From a virus: DNA of 28,928 bases. This document shows positions 207-28,436 of the stretch, piece after piece. Both the position numbers and the translations under genes were made by a program. How positions within the stretch are numbered: position 1 is the stretch's first letter; the number at the start of each line of letters is the position of its first letter. Under the pieces are notes generated by a model. It was given only the letters and a program-made list of their open reading frames with translations. It made no database searches and was not told the origin of the DNA. The stretch lies in the IMG/VR virus record IMGVR_UViG_3300038825_001373, positions 1 through 28,928 of that record. One strand, 5' to 3'.

Positions 207-1442
207 ATGAAAGAATTAAATAAACATAAATTAACTATTATACCAAAGTATGGAGATTATTATTATCCTACATCAAAGGTATTTGAGGATGATAAAGGAG
301 ATGTTGTATATTATGGAGAAGGAAATGAGTTTCCACAATATATAATTGAGCTTTATAATAAATCTTCTATAAATGGTACTGCAATATCAGCAAAACAAGA
401 TGGTATTGTTGGACAAGGATTGATTGCAGAAGATGAATCAATCTTACAACATGCAAACAAAGAAGGTGAAAGTTGGAATGATATATTCAAAAAAGTTGCT
501 TTAGATAAAGCAATGTTTGGTGGATTTGCATTAGAAATAATATGGTCTAACGATAGAACAAAAATTGCAGAAATATATCATGTAGATTTCTCTTACATCA
601 GAGCACATAAGATGAATCACAGAGGAATTGTACCAGGATATTATATTTCATCTGCATTTGAAAATAAAGGGAGATTAAGAATACCAAAAGAAGATTTAAC
701 TTATATACCTAGATTTAATAAGTTAGATAGAACATCTCCATCACAAATGATATATGCTGGAAATTACAAACCAGGTATGAGGTATTATCCTCTACCAGAT
801 TATCATTCAGGTCTAAATATTATAGCACTTGATGCAGAAATAGATAATTTCCACAAAAACAATATTAAAAATGGATTAGCTCCTTCGTTATCAATTACAA
901 CATTTACAAATGCAGATAATGAAGAAAGAGGAATCATAGAACAACAATTAAGAGATGCTTATGCAGGAAGTGATAATGCTGGTTCTCTTATTTATATGGA
1001 TGTTGCTAACAAAGAAGAAGCACCTGTCATCACACCAATACCACAAAATGGTGCTGATGGGTACTACACTACTGTTAATGATATGGTCACTCAAAAGATA
1101 CTTACATCTCATAGGATTACATCTCCTATGATTTTAGGTATTAAAACAGAAGGACAATTAGGAGGAAGAACAGAAATGTTAGAAGCTTATGCTCACTTCC
1201 AAAAAACAGTAATTGAACCAATGCAATCAGATATCTTAACTGTATTTGAAGATATATTTAAGGTAAATGGAATAGATGTAACACTTGGTGTAGAAACTAC
1301 AAGAATATTTGATGATGGTGATGAAACAGAAGTAGTAACATCAGTAGATGCAGAAGCAGGTGAAGATACTCTTTTAGAAGATGGTATAGAAGAAAACATC
1401 GTAAACATTCAAGAAGAACCTAAAAACGAGGAGATAATATAA
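207..1442 (+). CDS. Phage portal protein
   Basis: 411 aa, a normal size for a portal. It would form the ring at the capsid vertex through which DNA is packaged and to which the connector and tail attach. The N-terminal part with an NGTAISAKQDGIVGQGL segment, the helical middle and the GGRTEMLEAYAHFQKTVIEP segment near residues 313-332 resemble portals of Bacteroidota phages. The last ~45 residues are strongly acidic, probably a flexible tail. An AAGGA sequence about 6 nt upstream supports the ATG at 207. The gene starts 2 nt after the junction gene and its TAA overlaps the next ATG (TAATG). The call rests on family resemblance and position; the distance from terL, which normally neighbours portal, is unusual. 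Confidence 0.8.
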   Translation: MKELNKHKLTIIPKYGDYYYPTSKVFEDDKGDVVYYGEGNEFPQYIIELYNKSSINGTAISAKQDGIVGQGLIAEDESILQHANKEGESWNDIFKKVALDKAMFGGFALEIIWSNDRTKIAEIYHVDFSYIRAHKMNHRGIVPGYYISSAFENKGRLRIPKEDLTYIPRFNKLDRTSPSQMIYAGNYKPGMRYYPLPDYHSGLNIIALDAEIDNFHKNNIKNGLAPSLSITTFTNADNEERGIIEQQLRDAYAGSDNAGSLIYMDVANKEEAPVITPIPQNGADGYYTTVNDMVTQKILTSHRITSPMILGIKTEGQLGGRTEMLEAYAHFQKTVIEPMQSDILTVFEDIFKVNGIDVTLGVETTRIFDDGDETEVVTSVDAEAGEDTLLEDGIEENIVNIQEEPKNEEII

Positions 1443-5512: not shown

Positions 5513-5532
5513 AATTAAAAAAGGAGAATATT

Positions 5533-5991: not shown

Positions 5992-6017
5992 TATATTTAT
6001 ATTTACAAAGGAGTATA
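5992..6017 (+). promoter_or_regulatory. Repeated early-type promoter/leader element, copy 2, with SD for the sigma-like gene
   Basis: Matches 5759-5784 at 25 of 26 positions. TATATTTA lies at 5992-5999, and AAAGGAG ends 6 nt before the ATG at 6019. Both copies follow a terminator, as expected for transcription start regions. The transcript leader would be very short if TATATTTA is the -7 box. Confidence 0.6.
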
Positions 6018-6018
6018 A

Positions 6019-6546
6019 ATGAATATAAACAATTACATACAAATCCATTTCGGTGAGATTAAAAGAAAGATAAAGGCAGTAACAAGAAACCATCCAAATA
6101 CAGATGATTTAATATCAGATTGTGTTTTATCTTTATTAGAAAAAGGACCTGATTACACACATCAACTATTACTTGATGATAAAGTACAACACTACTTGAT
6201 TAAGATGGCTTACATACAATATAACTCATCTACATCACCTTTTCACTTAAAGTATAGGAAATCTAACCAATTACAACAATTGGAAGATAGACATGAATAT
6301 ATAAAAGTAGAAACCGAACCTAAAGTAGATGTAGATTCGTTTGCAAAAGATGTGAAGATATACATAGGTAAATTACCTTTTTATCAGAAAGAGTTAGCAA
6401 CTCAACATTTTATAAATGGTACATCTCAAAGAAAGATGAGTAAAAAATATAATATCAATAGAGTGCATATATCTAAAGATATAAAATTAATTAAGAAAAA
6501 TATGCAATTAACATTTAACAAAAACAAATACAAAAATGATGAATAA
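6019..6546 (+). CDS. Sigma-70-like RNA polymerase factor / HTH regulator
   Basis: 175 aa. Residues 24-42 (NHPNTDDLISDCVLSLLEK) resemble sigma region 2, where a DDL...D..L.LLEK helix contacts core polymerase. Residues 119-163 (LPFYQKELATQHFINGTSQRKMSKKYNINRVHISKDIKLIKK) match the helix-turn-helix of region 4. The protein is shorter than a full sigma factor, similar to ECF-like and phage sigma-like proteins. SD AAAGGAG lies 6 nt upstream. As the first gene after a host-type element, it could redirect polymerase to the ACC-N16-TATAAT promoters in this genome (inference). Alternatively it is a DNA-binding regulator without core binding. Confidence 0.65.
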   Translation: MNINNYIQIHFGEIKRKIKAVTRNHPNTDDLISDCVLSLLEKGPDYTHQLLLDDKVQHYLIKMAYIQYNSSTSPFHLKYRKSNQLQQLEDRHEYIKVETEPKVDVDSFAKDVKIYIGKLPFYQKELATQHFINGTSQRKMSKKYNINRVHISKDIKLIKKNMQLTFNKNKYKNDE

Positions 6547-19069: not shown

Positions 19070-20023
19070 ATGATTTACTTATCGTGTCAACCAGCAATAC
19101 CAAGATACACTTGGGAATGCGAAGTATATATTGAAAATTTCCTACATATGGGAGTTTCTCCTCAACAAATACATTTAGTTAATGGTTTGGATAGGGAATG
19201 GAAAGAAGTTCCTTTAGATTGGAAAAAATTACAAAACAAATACCCCTCAGTTAACTTTTGGTTTTATTATGATACAAGACCATTAGATAACAATTATCCA
19301 CCTTCTTTACAAGCACATCTGTTAGAGAAACATTGGATAATGAATCCACATTTAAATAATGAAGCTGTATTCTTTCATGATGCAGATTTTATATTTACAA
19401 AACCAATGGATTTTATTCCATTCTTACAAGATAACCATTGGTATTTGTCCAACACCATTTCTTACATTGGTGCTGAGTATATAAGAAGTAAGGGAGAGGA
19501 GGTGTTAGATAAGATGTGTGAAATAGCAGAGATAGATAAACGATATGTAGTTTATAATCAAGGTGGTTCGGGCGGAGCACAGAAACTTATAAAGAAAGTA
19601 GATAGTAAATATTGGAGAGATGTTTATAATTTATCTATGAGATTTTGGAAAGAAGTACCAATTATATCTCAAAAGATAAAATTTGAAAAACAAAAGAAGG
19701 GTGAATCTTATCACGAATTACAACATTGGACAATGAGTATGTGGGCTGAATTATGGACTGGATGGAAAAGAGGTGTTAGTACAAGAGTTGTACCTGAGTT
19801 TAATTTTATGTTTGCTACTAACCCAATAGAAGATTGGGAAAAGTACCCATTCTTCCATAATGCTGGTATAGTAGAAAATATGAGAAATAAATTATTTTTT
19901 AAAGGTGATTATGATAAAAGATTACCATACAAATACACCTTGTTAGATGCTGATAAAAGTAAAGCTAGTTATAAGTACTATGAGTGGATACAGAAGGTAG
20001 GTCAAAACTCATGCTTGATATAA
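19070..20023 (+). CDS. Glycosyltransferase-like protein (GT-A type, DxD motif)
   Basis: 317 aa. An N-terminal alpha/beta region leads to EAVFFHDADFIFTKPMDF (residues 98-115). Its D104-A-D106 after a hydrophobic strand is the DxD metal/sugar-nucleotide site of GT-A glycosyltransferases. GGSGGAQ (~165-171) and the later HELQHWTMSMWAELW segment fit the acceptor side. It has no membrane segment, so it is cytoplasmic. Upstream there is only an AT-rich stretch with a TATAAA/TATAAT-like sequence. It converges with and overlaps the minus-strand glycosyltransferase by 22 nt. Likely targets are virion proteins, host glycan or DNA; the neighbouring Thr/Ser tracts are an attractive candidate (inference). 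Confidence 0.7.
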   Translation: MIYLSCQPAIPRYTWECEVYIENFLHMGVSPQQIHLVNGLDREWKEVPLDWKKLQNKYPSVNFWFYYDTRPLDNNYPPSLQAHLLEKHWIMNPHLNNEAVFFHDADFIFTKPMDFIPFLQDNHWYLSNTISYIGAEYIRSKGEEVLDKMCEIAEIDKRYVVYNQGGSGGAQKLIKKVDSKYWRDVYNLSMRFWKEVPIISQKIKFEKQKKGESYHELQHWTMSMWAELWTGWKRGVSTRVVPEFNFMFATNPIEDWEKYPFFHNAGIVENMRNKLFFKGDYDKRLPYKYTLLDADKSKASYKYYEWIQKVGQNSCLI

Positions 20024-20694
20024 CCTAAGTTATAATCTTTTTGTTGAGCTAGTTTGTTAAACTGTTCTGTATCTTTTTTGTATTGTTCTGTAAATCCCTT
20101 AATTAACTCACCATTAGATAAAGTAGCAGATATTCTACTATCTTTCATAGGAACTCCTTTAAGAGCTTTACAAGGAACTTGGTTCATATGAAACTGCCAA
20201 GTATCTCCATAGAATAATTTTATTTCATCAGGTATAATACTCCAATTCCATTTATCAAAGAATATAGCACAACCCCAACCCATACAATGTTGTGGTATAT
20301 CTACTATTTCATATCTTTTTTCTTCACACTTATAGTTTGTATCGTGCATACCTAAAATACCCATACCTTCTGAAAAGTATGCAATATATTCAAATATATC
20401 TACATCAAAGATAATATCATCGTTTAAAATACCAACAATACTCTGGTCTTGACAAAACCCAACTCCTTTGTTCCAAGCTTTGTTAATCATCCAATCATTA
20501 TACTTCTGTGGTTTGTGTACTTTTAATTTAGGTTCTAAATCTTCATAAAAAGGAAAGTGTTCATCAAATGCTAAACCATTATCTATAATATGTACATGAG
20601 AAACCAAATCGTATTTAAGATACTTTGGTAACATCTCTTTTAAGTTTGTTAATGCTGGTTCTTTATAAAGTGTGGGTATAACTAATTCAATCAT
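20002..20694 (-). CDS. GT2-like glycosyltransferase
   Basis: 230 aa. MIELVIPTLYKEPALTNLKEML is the usual first strand-helix of GT2 family enzymes. HIIDNG (35-40), NKAWNKGVGF (71-80) and VGILNDDIIFD (87-97, with Asp92-Asp93) give the nucleotide-sugar and metal site. CMGWGCAIFFDK (~137-148) is the acceptor-side segment. It is shorter than bacterial GT2 enzymes and has no membrane domain, so it is a soluble phage-type transferase. It is the last gene of the minus operon, overlaps the 104-aa gene by 8 nt, and runs 22 nt into the end of the opposing glycosyltransferase gene. Confidence 0.8.
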   Translation of the reverse strand: MIELVIPTLYKEPALTNLKEMLPKYLKYDLVSHVHIIDNGLAFDEHFPFYEDLEPKLKVHKPQKYNDWMINKAWNKGVGFCQDQSIVGILNDDIIFDVDIFEYIAYFSEGMGILGMHDTNYKCEEKRYEIVDIPQHCMGWGCAIFFDKWNWSIIPDEIKLFYGDTWQFHMNQVPCKALKGVPMKDSRISATLSNGELIKGFTEQYKKDTEQFNKLAQQKDYNLGYIKHEF

Positions 20695-21001
20695 AATCGT
20701 AATGCCATTTTCTTCCTCTTGCTTTTCTTTCCATTATCATCTTATCTTGTTCTGATAGAATCTCCCAAGTAAACTTCTGATAATCACCATCTGGTTCAAA
20801 CAATAAATCTGTTAATTCTTTAAGATAAGCTTGATATAATTTTCTTTCTTCATCAGTATATACATCAATTGTTCTACCTGGACTAGGTTTTTTAAATATT
20901 GATTTAGGATATTTCTTTTTTATACTTTCTTTCTTTTTATCGTAGTTTCTATAATGTGCATTTGTCATAAGATGCTCTCTTTTAGTTTTGTTTATTTTCA
21001 C
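20687..21001 (-). CDS. 104-aa hypothetical basic protein
   Basis: Lys/Arg-rich N-terminal half (KTKREHLMTNAHYRNYDKKKESIKKKY), then an acidic helix (TDEERKLYQAYLKELTDLLF) and an end KARGRKWHYDYD. It overlaps bS21 by 20 nt upstream and the glycosyltransferase by 8 nt downstream, so the three are cotranscribed. The basic start could bind RNA or ribosomes, which would suit its neighbour, but no family is recognised. Confidence 0.6.
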   Translation of the reverse strand: MKINKTKREHLMTNAHYRNYDKKKESIKKKYPKSIFKKPSPGRTIDVYTDEERKLYQAYLKELTDLLFEPDGDYQKFTWEILSEQDKMIMERKARGRKWHYDYD

Positions 21002-21269
21002 TTTTACTTGGTTTAGATTTCTTTCTTTTCTTAGAATATAATTTTACTGTTGTATCTCCATCTTCTATTTTATCTAACTTACTTAAAAGTTCTTGTTCTC
21101 TGATTGCATTTAACTTTTGTTTTCTTTTAACAACAGATGGTTTTAGATACTCTTGTCTGTTTCTATATTCTATAAGATGTTCTGATTTTCTAACTTTTCT
21201 TTTGAATCTTGAAAGTAATTTGTTGAAGTGTTCACCTTTCTTAGCTTTAACTGAAACTAATTTTGCCAT
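20982..21269 (-). CDS. rpsU: Ribosomal protein bS21 homologue
   Basis: 95 aa. Residues 1-60 follow the bS21 fold: a beta-like start (MAKLVSVKAKKGEHFNKLL), then SRFKRKVRKSEHLIEYRNRQEYLKPSVVKRKQKLNAI, corresponding to the family's 'L.RFKR...k.g.l.E.R.r..yekPs..rkrk...a'. bS21 sits by the 3' end of 16S rRNA near the anti-Shine-Dalgarno. The ~35-residue C-terminal extension (acidic patch, then KKRKKSKPSKSENK) is beyond the usual bS21 length. Phage-borne bS21 is known from several environmental phage groups and can replace the host protein in ribosomes. No SD precedes this start; a TAACC-N16-TATAAT promoter lies at 21292-21316. Confidence 0.85.
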   Translation of the reverse strand: MAKLVSVKAKKGEHFNKLLSRFKRKVRKSEHLIEYRNRQEYLKPSVVKRKQKLNAIREQELLSKLDKIEDGDTTVKLYSKKRKKSKPSKSENKQN

Positions 21270-21291: not shown

Positions 21292-21316
21292 ATTATATCT
21301 TTTGCTCAAGGCTGGT
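21292..21316 (-). promoter_or_regulatory. ACC-N16-TATAAT promoter for the bS21 gene
   Basis: On the minus strand ACC (in TAACC, + coordinates 21314-21316), a 16-nt spacer, then TATAAT (21292-21297). It lies within the last codons of the 55-aa gene and would start transcription about 15-17 nt before the bS21 ATG. Confidence 0.7.
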
Positions 21317-21460
21317 TATTCTTTCTTCTAGTTTATCTATTCTTCTAACCAATCTATCAAATGCATAACTGTACTCTATCTTCCTGCTTTCTAAACGCAA
21401 TTCATCTATAATAGAGTGTAATGTCTCAATCTTATGTGTATTGCTTCTTGAGTCTTTCAT
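21293..21460 (-). CDS. 55-aa coiled-coil protein
   Basis: Begins MKDSRSNTHKIETLHSIIDE and continues with a heptad-patterned helix (RLVRRIDKLEERITSLEQKI). It starts inside the end of the upstream 51-aa gene (29-nt overlap) and its final codons contain the bS21 promoter. Small coiled-coil proteins of this kind are common in phages without a known role. Too short for independent proof, but the clean helix pattern and overlaps support it. Confidence 0.65.
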   Translation of the reverse strand: MKDSRSNTHKIETLHSIIDELRLESRKIEYSYAFDRLVRRIDKLEERITSLEQKI

Positions 21461-21587
21461 AGGAAGTTTTTAACATAGGTATTCTATGTAAGCATTGTGA
21501 TTGTAGCTGATAATATAACTTTTTATTTTTTATATTCTTAACCCAACCTTTTATATCTTCTGCTTTTAAGTAGTACCAAATACTCAT
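21432..21587 (-). CDS. 51-aa hypothetical protein
   Basis: Starts MSIWYYLKAEDIKGWVKNIK and ends SYERLKKQYT. The frame is open further upstream (to 21671), but the chosen ATG at 21587 lies 19 nt downstream of a TTAACC-N16-TATAAG promoter, while a longer product would begin upstream of that promoter. Mixed basic/aromatic helical protein; function unknown. It overlaps the 55-aa gene by 29 nt. Confidence 0.6.
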   Translation of the reverse strand: MSIWYYLKAEDIKGWVKNIKNKKLYYQLQSQCLHRIPMLKTSYERLKKQYT

Positions 21588-21606
21588 AGTGTAAGTTTTA
21601 TATATA

Positions 21607-21631
21607 CTTATATATTTTTTTATATAGTGGT
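21607..21631 (-). promoter_or_regulatory. ACC-N16-TATAAG promoter for the minus-strand operon
   Basis: Minus strand: TTAACC (ACC at + 21629-21631), 16 nt, TATAAG (+ 21607-21612). The predicted start is about 12 nt before the ATG at 21587. TTAACCACT is shared with the promoter at 23883-23907. Confidence 0.7.
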
Positions 21632-21679
21632 TAAGTTTAAAAATAAATGCATCAACCTCGAACTTAAACACTCAGGTAG

Positions 21680-23914: not shown

Positions 23915-26203
23915 ATGGATATAGAAGAATTACAAAATTACAAAGCTCCTAAAATCATTTCATTAGAAATAGATGAGTTTGATGAAGATTCAGGTGTTGA
24001 TGGTATTGCTCTTGTTGAGCAACCAGCGATCGAATCCGACTGGGTCTATTTCTCTTCACAGAAACATTTATTTGAATCTTATAGTGATTATCCTGATTCA
24101 GTAAGTAACAACGCTAAGAAAGGTATTGAACTTAACGAGAAACAAGGAAATAAATGTGCAACTCAGGTTGGCAAGGTGAGAGGACAACAATTAGCTAAGA
24201 AAGAAAAAATTTCAGTAGAAACAATTAAACGCATGTACTCTTATTTATCAAGAGCACAAGTTTATTATGATGAAGGAGATACTACATCTTGTGGATACAT
24301 TTCATATATGTTATGGGGAGGTTTAAGTGGAAAGAGATGGGCAGAATCTAAATTAAAAGAATTAGGTTTGTTTGAAGGAGAGATAGATGTAGCAGATATA
24401 GGAGATTATATACCAACAGGTAGTGATATAATTCCACAAGATGTATTTGTAGAAAATGCAGGTGGTTTTTCAGTAGGAGATTATGTATCTTGGACATTCG
24501 CGGGTAGAGGTGATGATGCAGATAGAGGAAGAGGACAAATTAAGGAACTACGAGTAAGTGGTAAACTAAAAGTACCAGGAACAGATTTCGAATTGTCTCC
24601 AACAGAAGATAGGCCAGCAGCTTTAATAGAAACTGTTGACGGAAAGTTAGTTGGACAATATACTGAAAACTTAAGAAAAATTAAGAAACCTGATAACTTT
24701 GATGAAGGTGAAAATATAGATGTATTAGGATATAGAACTAAATACTTCTATATGTGTAAAGGAGCTATCGGTACTTTCTTACACTTAATACAAATGGAAC
24801 CTGATGAAGAAACAGCAGGTATGATTCGTTCTGCAGCACAAATAGCAGATAATATATTTAAGATAGAACACGATGTAATACACGAAGGTGTTGCAGAGTT
24901 AGAAGAACTAGGTGAAGCACAAACTCTATTAGATGATTTTAAAGATTTGATGAAAGAGATTGATGAACTACTAGGAATGAAACACGATATATCCTATATG
25001 GATGGACATATAGAAGTTATAAGAGGATATATTGATGATATAGTATTAGAATACATTCTCCGAGAGATAATGGGAGAAAACAAATATATACAAGACTTAC
25101 CTCAAGATACTCAAGATAAAATATTAGAACGCTTGGATGAGATAGGAGAGAGTGAAGAGGAGCTCGAGAAGGCAGGTTGGGTATTGGTAGAAGATGAACA
25201 AAAGTTCGCAATATCTTCTAAACCCAACGAACCTTCCATAGAAGATTATGGTAAGTTTAGAATTAGATACAAATATACTGGTCCAAAGGATTCTAAGAAT
25301 AGAACTTTTTGTAGAAAGGTTTTAGATAAAGGACTTGTCTTTAGAAAAGAAGATATTAACAATATGTCAATAAGTGGAGAAAATTCACAATTTGGTGTAT
25401 ATGATATTTTTACATACAAAGGTTCTTATGGATGTAGACATTATTGGACAAGATTAGTATATGAGAAGGGGGATGATAATAGGGAAAGAAAAACAGAACA
25501 AAGAAGTGTAGATGAATCTTCTTCTGTTAATGCTAAACCTACAATGAATAGAAACCCCAATTCAGAAACTTTAATAGATAAAAATGCAACACAAACTGCA
25601 TTTAGTAAAATAAAATTTGAAAATGAGAAACAACTTATAGCAGGTCCTCTTATGATACCTCGTAGGTTGATATATCGTTTTGATGAAAATAATGGGGAGT
25701 ATTGGGTATATTTTACCGAAGAAACCATTGAAAAGATTGCTTACAAATACTTGATGAATAAAAATCAAGACCAAACTAATTTAGAACATAGTGAAGATAT
25801 AAAGTTGGAAGATGTTGTATTGGTTGAATCTTGGTTGGTTCAAGACCCTGAGAAAGATAAATCGTATGCCTTAACCGGTGAAAAGTATGAAAAAGGTACA
25901 TGGTTTGGAATTATGAAGGTGAAAAATTCAAGTGTATGGGAGGAATGGGTAAAGACTGGTAGAGTAAAAGGATTTAGTGTTGAAGGCTTTTTTGCTGATA
26001 AGATGATAAATGCTTCTAAACATCAGTTTTATTACCGAACTACTAAAGGTGGAACAGAGATAGTAATTGACCACGAAACCTTGGTAGTATTTATTCTAAA
26101 AGATGGTGAGCGTACAGCTATACTGCCAGATGGAACTTATGAACTTACTAATGGAACAACATTAAGAGTTATAGATTCTAAAGCGGTAGAGGGTTCGTTC
26201 TAA
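23915..26203 (+). CDS. Multidomain prohead protease (XkdF / Peptidase S78_2-like)
   Basis: 762 aa, far longer than a simple protease. Residues 1-47 (DSGVDGIALVEQPAIESDWVYFS) resemble the start of XkdF-type maturation proteases. Residues ~57-150 form a helical domain (YPDSVSNNAKKGIELNEKQGN...WGGLSGKRWAESKLKEL). Residues ~184-257 look like a Tudor-like DUF2945-type domain (VGDYVSW..., LVGQYTENLRKI). Residues ~270-380 are helical. Residues ~446-515 contain RYKYTGPKDS, CRKVLDK and CRHYWTR, as in domains linked to Mu-like head proteins. Residues ~570-700 are the protease, with candidate His625 (LEHSED) and Ser688 (GFSVEG). The protein is probably cleaved and partly discarded or packaged in the prohead. 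Start chosen from the 7-nt TATAAT spacing. Confidence 0.75.
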   Translation: MDIEELQNYKAPKIISLEIDEFDEDSGVDGIALVEQPAIESDWVYFSSQKHLFESYSDYPDSVSNNAKKGIELNEKQGNKCATQVGKVRGQQLAKKEKISVETIKRMYSYLSRAQVYYDEGDTTSCGYISYMLWGGLSGKRWAESKLKELGLFEGEIDVADIGDYIPTGSDIIPQDVFVENAGGFSVGDYVSWTFAGRGDDADRGRGQIKELRVSGKLKVPGTDFELSPTEDRPAALIETVDGKLVGQYTENLRKIKKPDNFDEGENIDVLGYRTKYFYMCKGAIGTFLHLIQMEPDEETAGMIRSAAQIADNIFKIEHDVIHEGVAELEELGEAQTLLDDFKDLMKEIDELLGMKHDISYMDGHIEVIRGYIDDIVLEYILREIMGENKYIQDLPQDTQDKILERLDEIGESEEELEKAGWVLVEDEQKFAISSKPNEPSIEDYGKFRIRYKYTGPKDSKNRTFCRKVLDKGLVFRKEDINNMSISGENSQFGVYDIFTYKGSYGCRHYWTRLVYEKGDDNRERKTEQRSVDESSSVNAKPTMNRNPNSETLIDKNATQTAFSKIKFENEKQLIAGPLMIPRRLIYRFDENNGEYWVYFTEETIEKIAYKYLMNKNQDQTNLEHSEDIKLEDVVLVESWLVQDPEKDKSYALTGEKYEKGTWFGIMKVKNSSVWEEWVKTGRVKGFSVEGFFADKMINASKHQFYYRTTKGGTEIVIDHETLVVFILKDGERTAILPDGTYELTNGTTLRVIDSKAVEGSF

Positions 26204-26239
26204 ATCAATTAATGTTAAAACCAAAAATAGGAGTTTATT

Positions 26240-26947
26240 ATGAACAACGAAGAACTAAGAAATTTAGTTAAAAAACATTTCAACTTAGTTGAACCAGCAG
26301 TTGAAGAAACTGTGGAGGAAACAAAAGAAGAAATGTCTGAAGTTGCTAACGAACAAACCTTTGGTGAAATTTTAACTGCTGATGGAGAACTTACTCTTAC
26401 TTATGAAGGAGAAGAACTCTCTGTTGGATTACCAATATTTGTTAAAACAGATGATGGTAATGTACCAGCACCAGATGGAGAACATGCTTTGGAAGGAGGT
26501 GTGTTTATTAAAACAGAAGGTGGTTCAATAGTTGAAATTTCAGAAGGTGAAATCGAAGCGGCTGAAGAAGAAGTAGTAGCTACAGAAGAGGAAAAAGATT
26601 TCTCTGAAGAAGAAACTACTGAAACTGAAACAAAAGAGTCTGATGAGAAATTTGATGAACACGAAGAAGAAGTTGTATTAGAAGAAGAAGAAATCATTAT
26701 TAAAGCAATTGCTGAAACAATTTTACCTATCATTGAAGAAATGAAAGACGAAATTGAAGAGATGAAGAAAAACTTTTCTAAAACTGAAACTAAGGTCAAA
26801 GAATTTGCATTAGCACCTGCAGCGGAAAGAACCAAAGCAGAAATTAACAACAGAAATCATAGTAAAGTTGATAATTCTTATAATCCAATTAATGATGATA
26901 AGAAGAAACAATTTGAAAGATTATTAAAAATTAGAAACAAAAAATAA
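26240..26947 (+). CDS. Capsid scaffold protein (probable)
   Basis: 235 aa, very acidic. An N-terminal helix leads to a beta-type segment (residues ~41-100: ILTADGELTLTYEGEEL..., APDGEHALEGGVFIKTEGGSIVEI), a Glu-rich region (~100-150), a coiled coil (~150-185) and a basic C-terminus. Glu-rich coiled coils with a basic end that touches the capsid protein are typical of phage scaffolds, and it sits exactly between protease and major capsid genes. Its beta segment resembles the last ~25 residues of the protease (LPDGTYELTNGTTLRV), suggesting a shared origin. SD TAGGAG lies 8 nt upstream. Confidence 0.75.
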   Translation: MNNEELRNLVKKHFNLVEPAVEETVEETKEEMSEVANEQTFGEILTADGELTLTYEGEELSVGLPIFVKTDDGNVPAPDGEHALEGGVFIKTEGGSIVEISEGEIEAAEEEVVATEEEKDFSEEETTETETKESDEKFDEHEEEVVLEEEEIIIKAIAETILPIIEEMKDEIEEMKKNFSKTETKVKEFALAPAAERTKAEINNRNHSKVDNSYNPINDDKKKQFERLLKIRNKK

Positions 26948-26958
26948 GGAGAAAAATC

Positions 26959-27873
26959 ATGGCAGGATTTAACGTATCTGCATTAGCAGATTTTAACAAT
27001 GAATTGGCTGGAGAATTCCTAGTAAAATCAGTAATCGCTGGTTCTACCGCGGAATATGTAACGGTCAAAGAGGGGATTAAATATAAAGAACCCCTAAATC
27101 TACAAGAAATAGATTTACAAATACAAGACGGATTTGGATGTGTAACTACACCTTCAGGTTCAGTAACATATACTCAAAGAGATTTGGAAGTATGTCAAAG
27201 AAGTTCATACGATGGACTATGTTTAAGAGACTTAGATAAGAAGTATATTGGTCTATTAGGACCTGAAGGTTCTTATCCTGAAACTTATGCATTCGCAGAA
27301 GAATATGCATCTCAATTAGTTGCTAACTTCCAAAAGAAGAATGACCAGTTTATCTGGACTGCAACTACTGGTGGTGGTGACTGTGTTAATGGTCTTAATA
27401 CACTATTAGCTTCAGGTTCAGCTGCAACTTTTGTATCTTCATCTGCACCAACATCAGACAATATCTTAGGTATTCTTGATGAGCAGTTAGAGAACTTATC
27501 AGTAGATGTACAAGATAGAGATGACTTAACAGTATTTATGTCAATCGCTAACTTTAGAAAATACATCGTAGGATTAAGAAAAGCAAACAACTATTTCTAT
27601 GACCCTAACACGGTAGAGAATAGAGGTTCATTACTTTCAGCAATGCACCCATTTGCTAACTTAAGAGTTGTTGGTACAGTAGGATTAGCAGGTACTAACA
27701 GAATCGTAACTGGTCCAGCTAGACACATCGTAATTGGTACTGATTTAATTTCAGACCTTGATAACTTCCAATTATGGTATGATATCAACGATGACCAATT
27801 GAAACATAGAATTGTAACTAAACTAGGTGTTCAAGTTGCTTATCCAGAATTCTGGGTAACTAACAACCTGTAA
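26959..27873 (+). CDS. Major capsid protein
   Basis: 304 aa. A loop-rich N-terminus is followed by QEIDLQIQDGFGCVTTPSGSVTYTQRDLEVCQ, CLRDLDKKYIGLLGPEGSYPE, a helix (AEEYASQLVANFQKKNDQFIWTA) and a C-terminal domain with DLTVFMSIANFRKYIVGLRK, RVVGTVGLAGTNRIVTGPARHIVIGTDL and DQLKHRIVTKLGVQVAYPEFWVTNN. The ending with a strand-rich A-domain is typical of HK97-fold capsid proteins of Bacteroidota phages. Size, strong SD (AAGGAG, 8 nt before ATG) and its place after scaffold and protease agree. Three of its Cys lie in conserved-looking loops. Confidence 0.9.
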   Translation: MAGFNVSALADFNNELAGEFLVKSVIAGSTAEYVTVKEGIKYKEPLNLQEIDLQIQDGFGCVTTPSGSVTYTQRDLEVCQRSSYDGLCLRDLDKKYIGLLGPEGSYPETYAFAEEYASQLVANFQKKNDQFIWTATTGGGDCVNGLNTLLASGSAATFVSSSAPTSDNILGILDEQLENLSVDVQDRDDLTVFMSIANFRKYIVGLRKANNYFYDPNTVENRGSLLSAMHPFANLRVVGTVGLAGTNRIVTGPARHIVIGTDLISDLDNFQLWYDINDDQLKHRIVTKLGVQVAYPEFWVTNNL

Positions 27874-27899
27874 TCATTAACTAAAGGAGGAGAAAAATT

Positions 27900-28436
27900 A
27901 TGGCATGTGATATTACAAGTGGATTTGCTCTAGGATGTAGAGACAATACCGGTGGAATCAAAGCGGTTTATATCCTCTCTGGTTCAGTTTCAACAGTAAC
28001 AGATACTGCAAATGAAGTATCTAATATTAGTGGAACTGGAATTTTTTATCAGTTTGATTTACAAAGGGGAACATCTGATTTCACAGAAACAATCAACGGT
28101 TCAACTGAAAACCAAACAGTCTTTTATGAGGCTACGATAAATGCCGCGTTCGCGAAATTACAAACCGATACTAGAAACCAAGTAAAAATACTTGCTCAGA
28201 ATCCAGATTTAAAAATCGTTGTTGAAACAAACAACGATGCTGCATCTGAGAAGTTTATTTATGTAGGTAGAAGAAACGGTGCTGTATTAAACGCAGGACA
28301 AGGTCAGTCAGGAACTGCTTTAGGTGATGCTAACGGATATACCTTAACTTTCACTGCACAAGAACCACAACCAGCAGATTTTATCTCTGGTTCAAACTTG
28401 GCGGGAGCGTTAACAGGAATAACTGTTTCACAATAA
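27900..28436 (+). CDS. Major tail tube protein (probable)
   Basis: 178 aa. The start MACDITSGFALGCRDNTGGIKAVYI, the centre FYQFDLQRGTSDFTETINGSTENQTVFYEATINAAFAKL, then RNQVKILAQNPDLKIVVE and the end TALGDANGYTLTFTAQEPQPA match a family of single-domain tail tube proteins in Bacteroidota phages. It carries the best SD of the genome (AAAGGAGGAG, about 8 nt before the ATG), as expected for the second most abundant virion protein. It is followed by a strong terminator, ending the head module. The alternative is a capsid decoration protein, given its position right after the capsid gene. Confidence 0.75.
   Translation: MACDITSGFALGCRDNTGGIKAVYILSGSVSTVTDTANEVSNISGTGIFYQFDLQRGTSDFTETINGSTENQTVFYEATINAAFAKLQTDTRNQVKILAQNPDLKIVVETNNDAASEKFIYVGRRNGAVLNAGQGQSGTALGDANGYTLTFTAQEPQPADFISGSNLAGALTGITVSQ

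Follow-up and report, generated by a model that had tools for sequence, protein, structure and literature searches.

The virus record IMGVR_UViG_3300038825_001373 of IMG/VR (28,928 bases, analysed over its whole length and referred to here as the window) encodes a ribosomal protein bS21 with Arg at the site occupied by Tyr54 in the bS21 of Flavobacterium johnsoniae, and it belongs to a clade of phages in which Shine-Dalgarno (SD) sequences are conserved before several genes. The Arg at the Tyr54 site, the confinement of both SD use and bS21 to a single portal clade, and the finding that the nearest isolated phages are marine flavobacterial ones are new. The anti-SD lock of F. johnsoniae is known, the phage protein differs exactly there, and SDs are absent from the bS21-negative kin, which makes phage ribosome specialisation testable. 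The impression that phage bS21s of such a kind always retain the aromatic residue is corrected here.

The bS21 gene, its cassette and the genome

Among the ribosomal proteins encoded by viruses, phage bS21 is the commonest. In the window, the first-pass annotation had recognised a 95-aa bS21-like protein with a family-like core in residues 1-60, an extra C-terminal tail of about 35 residues and no SD of its own, all of which was borne out. The PF01165 profile matched residues 5-58 with 40.5 bits (gathering score: 27), and PHROG 21469 ('ribosomal protein S21') was the second profile match. The AlphaFold2 model (mean pLDDT 82) contained helices at residues 15-29, 31-39 and 44-69, in agreement with the short helical fold expected of bS21; the last helix was longer, and the basic tail beyond residue 80 was of low confidence. 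F. johnsoniae bS21 (PDB 7jil; PMC9976891) was among the best solved-structure matches, with a gap-free core (residues 5-61) and the helix arrangement usual for bS21. The phage protein differed from it by Arg in place of Tyr54 and by approximately 31 additional C-terminal residues, and its gene lacked the extended SD that autoregulates host rpsU. The tail, extending about 37 residues past the family core, was restricted within the group to the closest subclade (the window, L109, L116 and L119), and a similar tail was found in the T4-like phages L141 and L142.

SD strength was expressed as duplex energy against the 16S 3' tail, and an SD was counted at −5 kcal/mol or lower. No SD was found before bS21 in the window (−0.8 kcal/mol) or in any of the 11 members of the group that were read (−3.7 to +0.8), whereas many cellular rpsU genes carried an extended SD (−12 to −19). 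The proposed switch would therefore be independent of itself.

The bS21 gene lies in a reverse-strand cassette flanked by forward-strand genes (Table 1). Genes 20687, 21293 and 21432 recurred, singly or together, beside bS21 in the unrelated phages L144, L148/L149 and L150, suggesting that bS21 moves as a module; judged from these sequences, the cassette looks mobile between phages.

Table 1. Features of the window that bear on bS21 and SD use (energies in kcal/mol)
Feature	Position	Strand	Basis or remark
Portal protein	207..1442	+	Used for the family tree; named relatives 50/50 phages of Bacteroidota
SD GAGGAG of gene 1442	1428..1433	+	−8.7; 36/36 orthologues
SD AAAGGAG of 32-aa ORF 5533	5520..5526	+	−9.3
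SD AAAGGAG of sigma-like gene 6019	6007..6013	+	−8.7; 27/27 orthologues
230-aa cassette protein, unknown function	20002..20694	-	No Pfam match; conserved in the group
Conserved small protein overlapping the bS21 end	20687..21001	-	Accompanies bS21; the unrelated phages L144, L148, L150 have it too
Phage bS21 (rpsU-like), 95 aa	20982..21269 (start 21269)	-	Basic tail (59-95) after the family core (5-58)
C-terminal extension of bS21, rich in Lys (KIEDGDTxxxLYSKKRKK type)	20985..21095	-	Sequence and alignments
Codon 57 (Arg), F. johnsoniae Tyr54 position	21099..21101	-	Gap-free alignment to 7jil and 9i5v chains; family alignments
55-aa coiled-coil-like ORF upstream of bS21	21293..21460	-	Also adjoins bS21 in L148/L149
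79-aa ORF of the bS21 cassette	21432..21671	-	Also adjoins bS21 in L144
SD AGGAG of gene 26240	26229..26233	+	−6.8; 90% of 30 orthologues
SD AAGGAG of gene 26959	26946..26951	+	−8.2; −5 or lower in 91% of 32 orthologues
Probable major capsid protein	26959..27873	+	By position; phrog_11320 (unknown function); gene order matches P12024S
SD AAAGGAGGAG of gene 27900	27883..27892	+	−12.0; kept in 34/34 orthologues
178-aa virion-module protein (tail tube in the first-pass annotation)	27900..28436	+	Named relatives only P12024S/L, same site adjoining the portal gene

The gene order of relatives (window versus L120-L139), with gene 27900 followed by 103 and 207, indicated that the genome is circularly permuted and about 30 kb long, so the window is almost the entire genome. 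This is small for a bS21 carrier; the cultivated bS21 phages in Mizuno et al. 2019 exceed 130 kb (PMC6375957). One of the known carriers, Pelagibacter phage HTVC008M, resembles the window phage in encoding a bS21, which enters Escherichia coli ribosomes on overexpression, but differs in its alphaproteobacterial host and in sequence (Mizuno et al. 2019, PMC6375957). Bacteroidetes myophages likewise carry a reverse-strand bS21 among structural genes, for which late ribosome redirection has been proposed (Chen et al. 2022, PMC9723584). However, those phages have genomes of up to 331 kb and an aromatic residue at position 54 in 61/61 bS21s (PMC9723584), a trait absent from the window bS21, whereas the window phage combines Arg, a genome of about 30 kb and conserved SDs.

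The nearest isolates were the Nonlabens phages P12024S and P12024L (JQ823122 and JQ823123), which share the order of the head module and have relatives of the portal, of gene 27900 and of the protease-like domain at 27-36% identity. The labels 'capsid', 'scaffold' and 'tail tube' derive from gene order; the structure model of gene 27900 (pLDDT 45) was too poor for testing the last of these, and no named relatives were found for the major capsid-like, 1442 and 10789 proteins. The region 23915-26203 is possibly a multi-domain phage fusion, matching portal C-terminal, protease-like and phrog_24921 profiles, and the phrog_24921 profile also matched the gene after 23915.

SD use within the portal family

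Strong SDs had been reported before the sigma-like gene, the 32-aa ORF and the head genes. These SDs are real and conserved at orthologues, but the window alone showed no significant excess: 8/26 starts and 20/106 internal Met codons reached −5 or lower (p = 0.19). In addition, the sigma label has a weak family match behind it (gene 6019-6546; phrog_1740, E 7e-6). A sigma-70 region 2 gene, preceded by no SD, is present in P12024S. No SD was found in the window before the terminase gene, 13056 (1502 aa), 17579, 22128 or 23915, the portal SD reached only −5.0, and the orthologues of the terminase gene, 13056 and 11391 were mostly without an SD. Moreover, many SDs were only of the AGGA class (−5 to −6).

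The significance of the SDs thus comes from conservation at orthologous starts and from the pooled relatives, in which starts were enriched in clades A-C (p = 0.0003) and in clade D (p = 1e-15), P values that overstate the independence of related genomes because they are pooled over genes. Although the window-only p of 0.19 would suit an origin of the SDs as random A/G runs of an AT-rich genome, that origin is highly improbable and is contradicted by the orthologues, since the SD cores of three genes, unlike other genes, were kept in 34/34, 36/36 and 27/27 cases down to a protein identity of 57% or lower, and by the clade D enrichment.

In a tree of 58 portal proteins, the SD-using phages formed a single clade (A-D; 97%) that contained all known bS21 carriers of the family. 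SDs preceded 136/295 starts in this clade, whereas the sister group and the outgroups, including P12024S, avoided them (2/51 and 12/151 starts; pooled 14/202). The bS21 gene was present in every clade A-C contig covering the locus and in 0/30 sister and outgroup records, some of which span 23-42 kb and many of which are fragments. Specifically, the syntenic flavobacterial phage P12024S, like P12024L, differed from the window phage in that no bS21 was found and orthologous genes lacked SDs. The heaviest SD use was observed in clade D, which is sister to clades A-C (76/122 starts, 62%). One clade D contig, G012 (27.1 kb, with a small gap remaining), used SDs at 50%, and no bS21 was seen in it. 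At its end (L139), a terminator-like hairpin follows terL at the place of bS21 in the clade D contig G008. Because the SD trait and bS21 changed jointly only once in the portal family, their cause is inseparable from a shared host change.

The Tyr54 site in other phages and in cells

In F. johnsoniae, the anti-SD is held by Tyr54 of bS21, which stacks on A1534; this tyrosine is uniquely conserved in Bacteroidia (McNutt et al., PMC9976891). The Y54A substitution raised translation of a strong-SD reporter 1.7-3 fold in vivo and deletion of the bS21 C-terminus raised SD-reporter output 2-4 fold, whereas a weak AGGA SD gave no response (PMC9976891). Tyr occupied the site in 80/80 flavobacterial rpsU genes and Arg in all 12 clade A-C bS21s readable at the site, and the one known clade D bS21, which is more distant (G008, L408), has Tyr. 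The window bS21 lacked both marks of the Bacteroidia-type, anti-SD-sequestering protein, namely the aromatic residue at 54 (here Arg57) and the extended SD on its own gene. In the bS21 tree, which is poorly resolved with many open forks because the gene is short, the phage Arg54 proteins grouped with Tyr/His54 phage bS21s (98%), apart from a clade of cellular Arg54 proteins (99%). Within phages, the residue has thus apparently undergone more than one change, as far as such a short gene can tell. The same tree, poorly resolved as it is, gave no support for a cellular Arg54 lineage as the source of the phage gene.

The first-pass annotation expected SD use to differ between relatives with and without bS21. 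This held for the bS21-negative portal kin, but bS21 carriage alone did not track SD use. Short Tyr54 (type-1) bS21 phages of another lineage avoided SDs (5/194 starts versus 205/953 internal codons), so the presence of bS21 was rejected as the determinant, and the majority of the other bS21-carrying phages surveyed, mainly with Tyr54, avoided them as well. Among these other phages, SD use was higher with Arg54 bS21 (43/90) than with aromatic type-2 bS21 (36/165). Exceptions occurred both ways: outside the group, Arg54 was found in SD users (L141, L142, L152 and L178) and in SD avoiders (L150, L155 and the L151 group), and Tyr54 was found in the SD users L157, L202 and L208. Over lineages grouped by hand, the association of Arg54 with SD use gave p = 0.08 uncorrected, and 0.21 inside the relevant bS21 clade. 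A strict rule with Arg54 as the sole determinant was therefore rejected. Of the T4-like relatives of L141 and L142, immuto (a Flavobacterium phage) avoids SDs but Mel-JY01 (a Microcystis phage) uses them, suggesting that SD use may be decided by which host is infected. In Mel-JY01 (L412, 6152-6379; recorded from Microcystis), L141 and L142, bS21 lies near the capsid gene.

The window phage, which is aquatic, probably infects a member of Bacteroidota, an assignment that stops short of the host class. All named matches of the portal and of gene 27900 (4/4) were phages of Bacteroidota, and part of gene 23915 pointed the same way. The Bacteroidota promoter TTTGG-N17-21-TAnnTTTG was found 7 times in clade D against 0.5 expected, and 3 times in clades A-C, including the window, against 2.2 expected. 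A portal search of genome contigs for the host returned no match; in sampled genomes it gave distant matches in 2 of about 300 from the phylum and one short weak match in about 300 from Pseudomonadota. Within the GTDB phylum, Arg at the site is itself found in some cellular lineages, of the KAVREQ and KAIRR types. The KAIRR-type cells sampled were mostly SD users (16-76% of starts), and the KAVREQ-type cells showed no SD use (about 21% of starts versus 25% internally), with 14-36 genes read per genome in both. In the genomes L301, L305, L315, L316, L322 and L326 of the Bacteroidota phylum, the rpsU genes of the cellular bS21 type ending in KAVREQ keep an extended SD (−13 to −14).

Models for the role of the phage bS21

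A link between the Arg57 bS21 and the retained SDs is plausible. The phage bS21 message has no SD and would be readable by ordinary host ribosomes. Its product could then enter the host 30S in competition with host bS21, as another phage bS21 does in E. coli. As the aromatic residue stacking on A1534 is replaced by Arg and a basic tail is added on that face, the 16S 3' tail may be held more loosely and the anti-SD freed, by analogy with the F. johnsoniae Y54A and C-terminal deletion mutants. Messages with strong SDs (the sigma-like and virion genes) would out-initiate SD-less host messages, and a fraction of the host ribosomes would become SD-reading for virion production.

That the phage bS21 opens the anti-SD and favours SD-bearing phage messages late in infection, as first proposed, is possible but doubtful. 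It draws support from the family membership, the 12/12 Arg, the mutant effects, the conserved SDs, the co-occurrence in one clade, the SD-less bS21-negative kin and the higher SD use of other phages with an Arg54 bS21. It is weakened by the many AGGA-class SDs, a class to which F. johnsoniae is unresponsive (PMC9976891), by clade D, where SD use is highest with a Tyr54 bS21 or, in G012, with none seen, by Arg54 avoiders and Tyr54 users with the lineage association at p = 0.08, by Tyr54 bS21 phages that avoid SDs, and by the near-background promoter count of clades A-C. The stronger version, in which a Tyr-less phage bS21 builds SD-reading ribosomes in an SD-ignoring bacterium and gives virion genes an mRNA code of their own, is tentative and rather unlikely.

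It is quite possible, though short of probable, that the clade A-D host already reads SDs, for example as a member of a non-Bacteroidia class with an Arg bS21, and that the phage protein just matches the host ribosome, supplementing or replacing its bS21; this differs little in likelihood from opening of the anti-SD. Cellular lineages with Arg at the site exist, most of the KAIRR types sampled are SD users, and AIREQ, the motif of the phage, is similar to KAVREQ. Likewise, SD use is uniform over the clade regardless of the bS21 residue, and the T4-like pair divides by host. An SD-reading host is, however, harder to reconcile with the grouping of phage Arg54 bS21s with Tyr/His54 phage proteins rather than cellular Arg54 ones, short as the gene is, with the absence of SD use in KAVREQ cells, with the promoters and Bacteroidia-type Tyr54 of clade D, and with the Bacteroidia hosts of the nearest named phages.

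Finally, bS21 may aid translation generally and have no connection with SDs, by completing the 30S, replacing lost bS21 or countering a host block, with SDs serving initiation or mRNA stability otherwise. Most of the bS21-carrying phages surveyed avoid SDs, the cassette is shared by unrelated phages with and without them (L144, L148 and L150), and published phage bS21s retain the aromatic residue (PMC9723584). Such a general role is nevertheless rather unlikely, and it leaves unexplained both the loss of the aromatic residue in this clade and why SD use and bS21 coincide in one clade of the portal tree.
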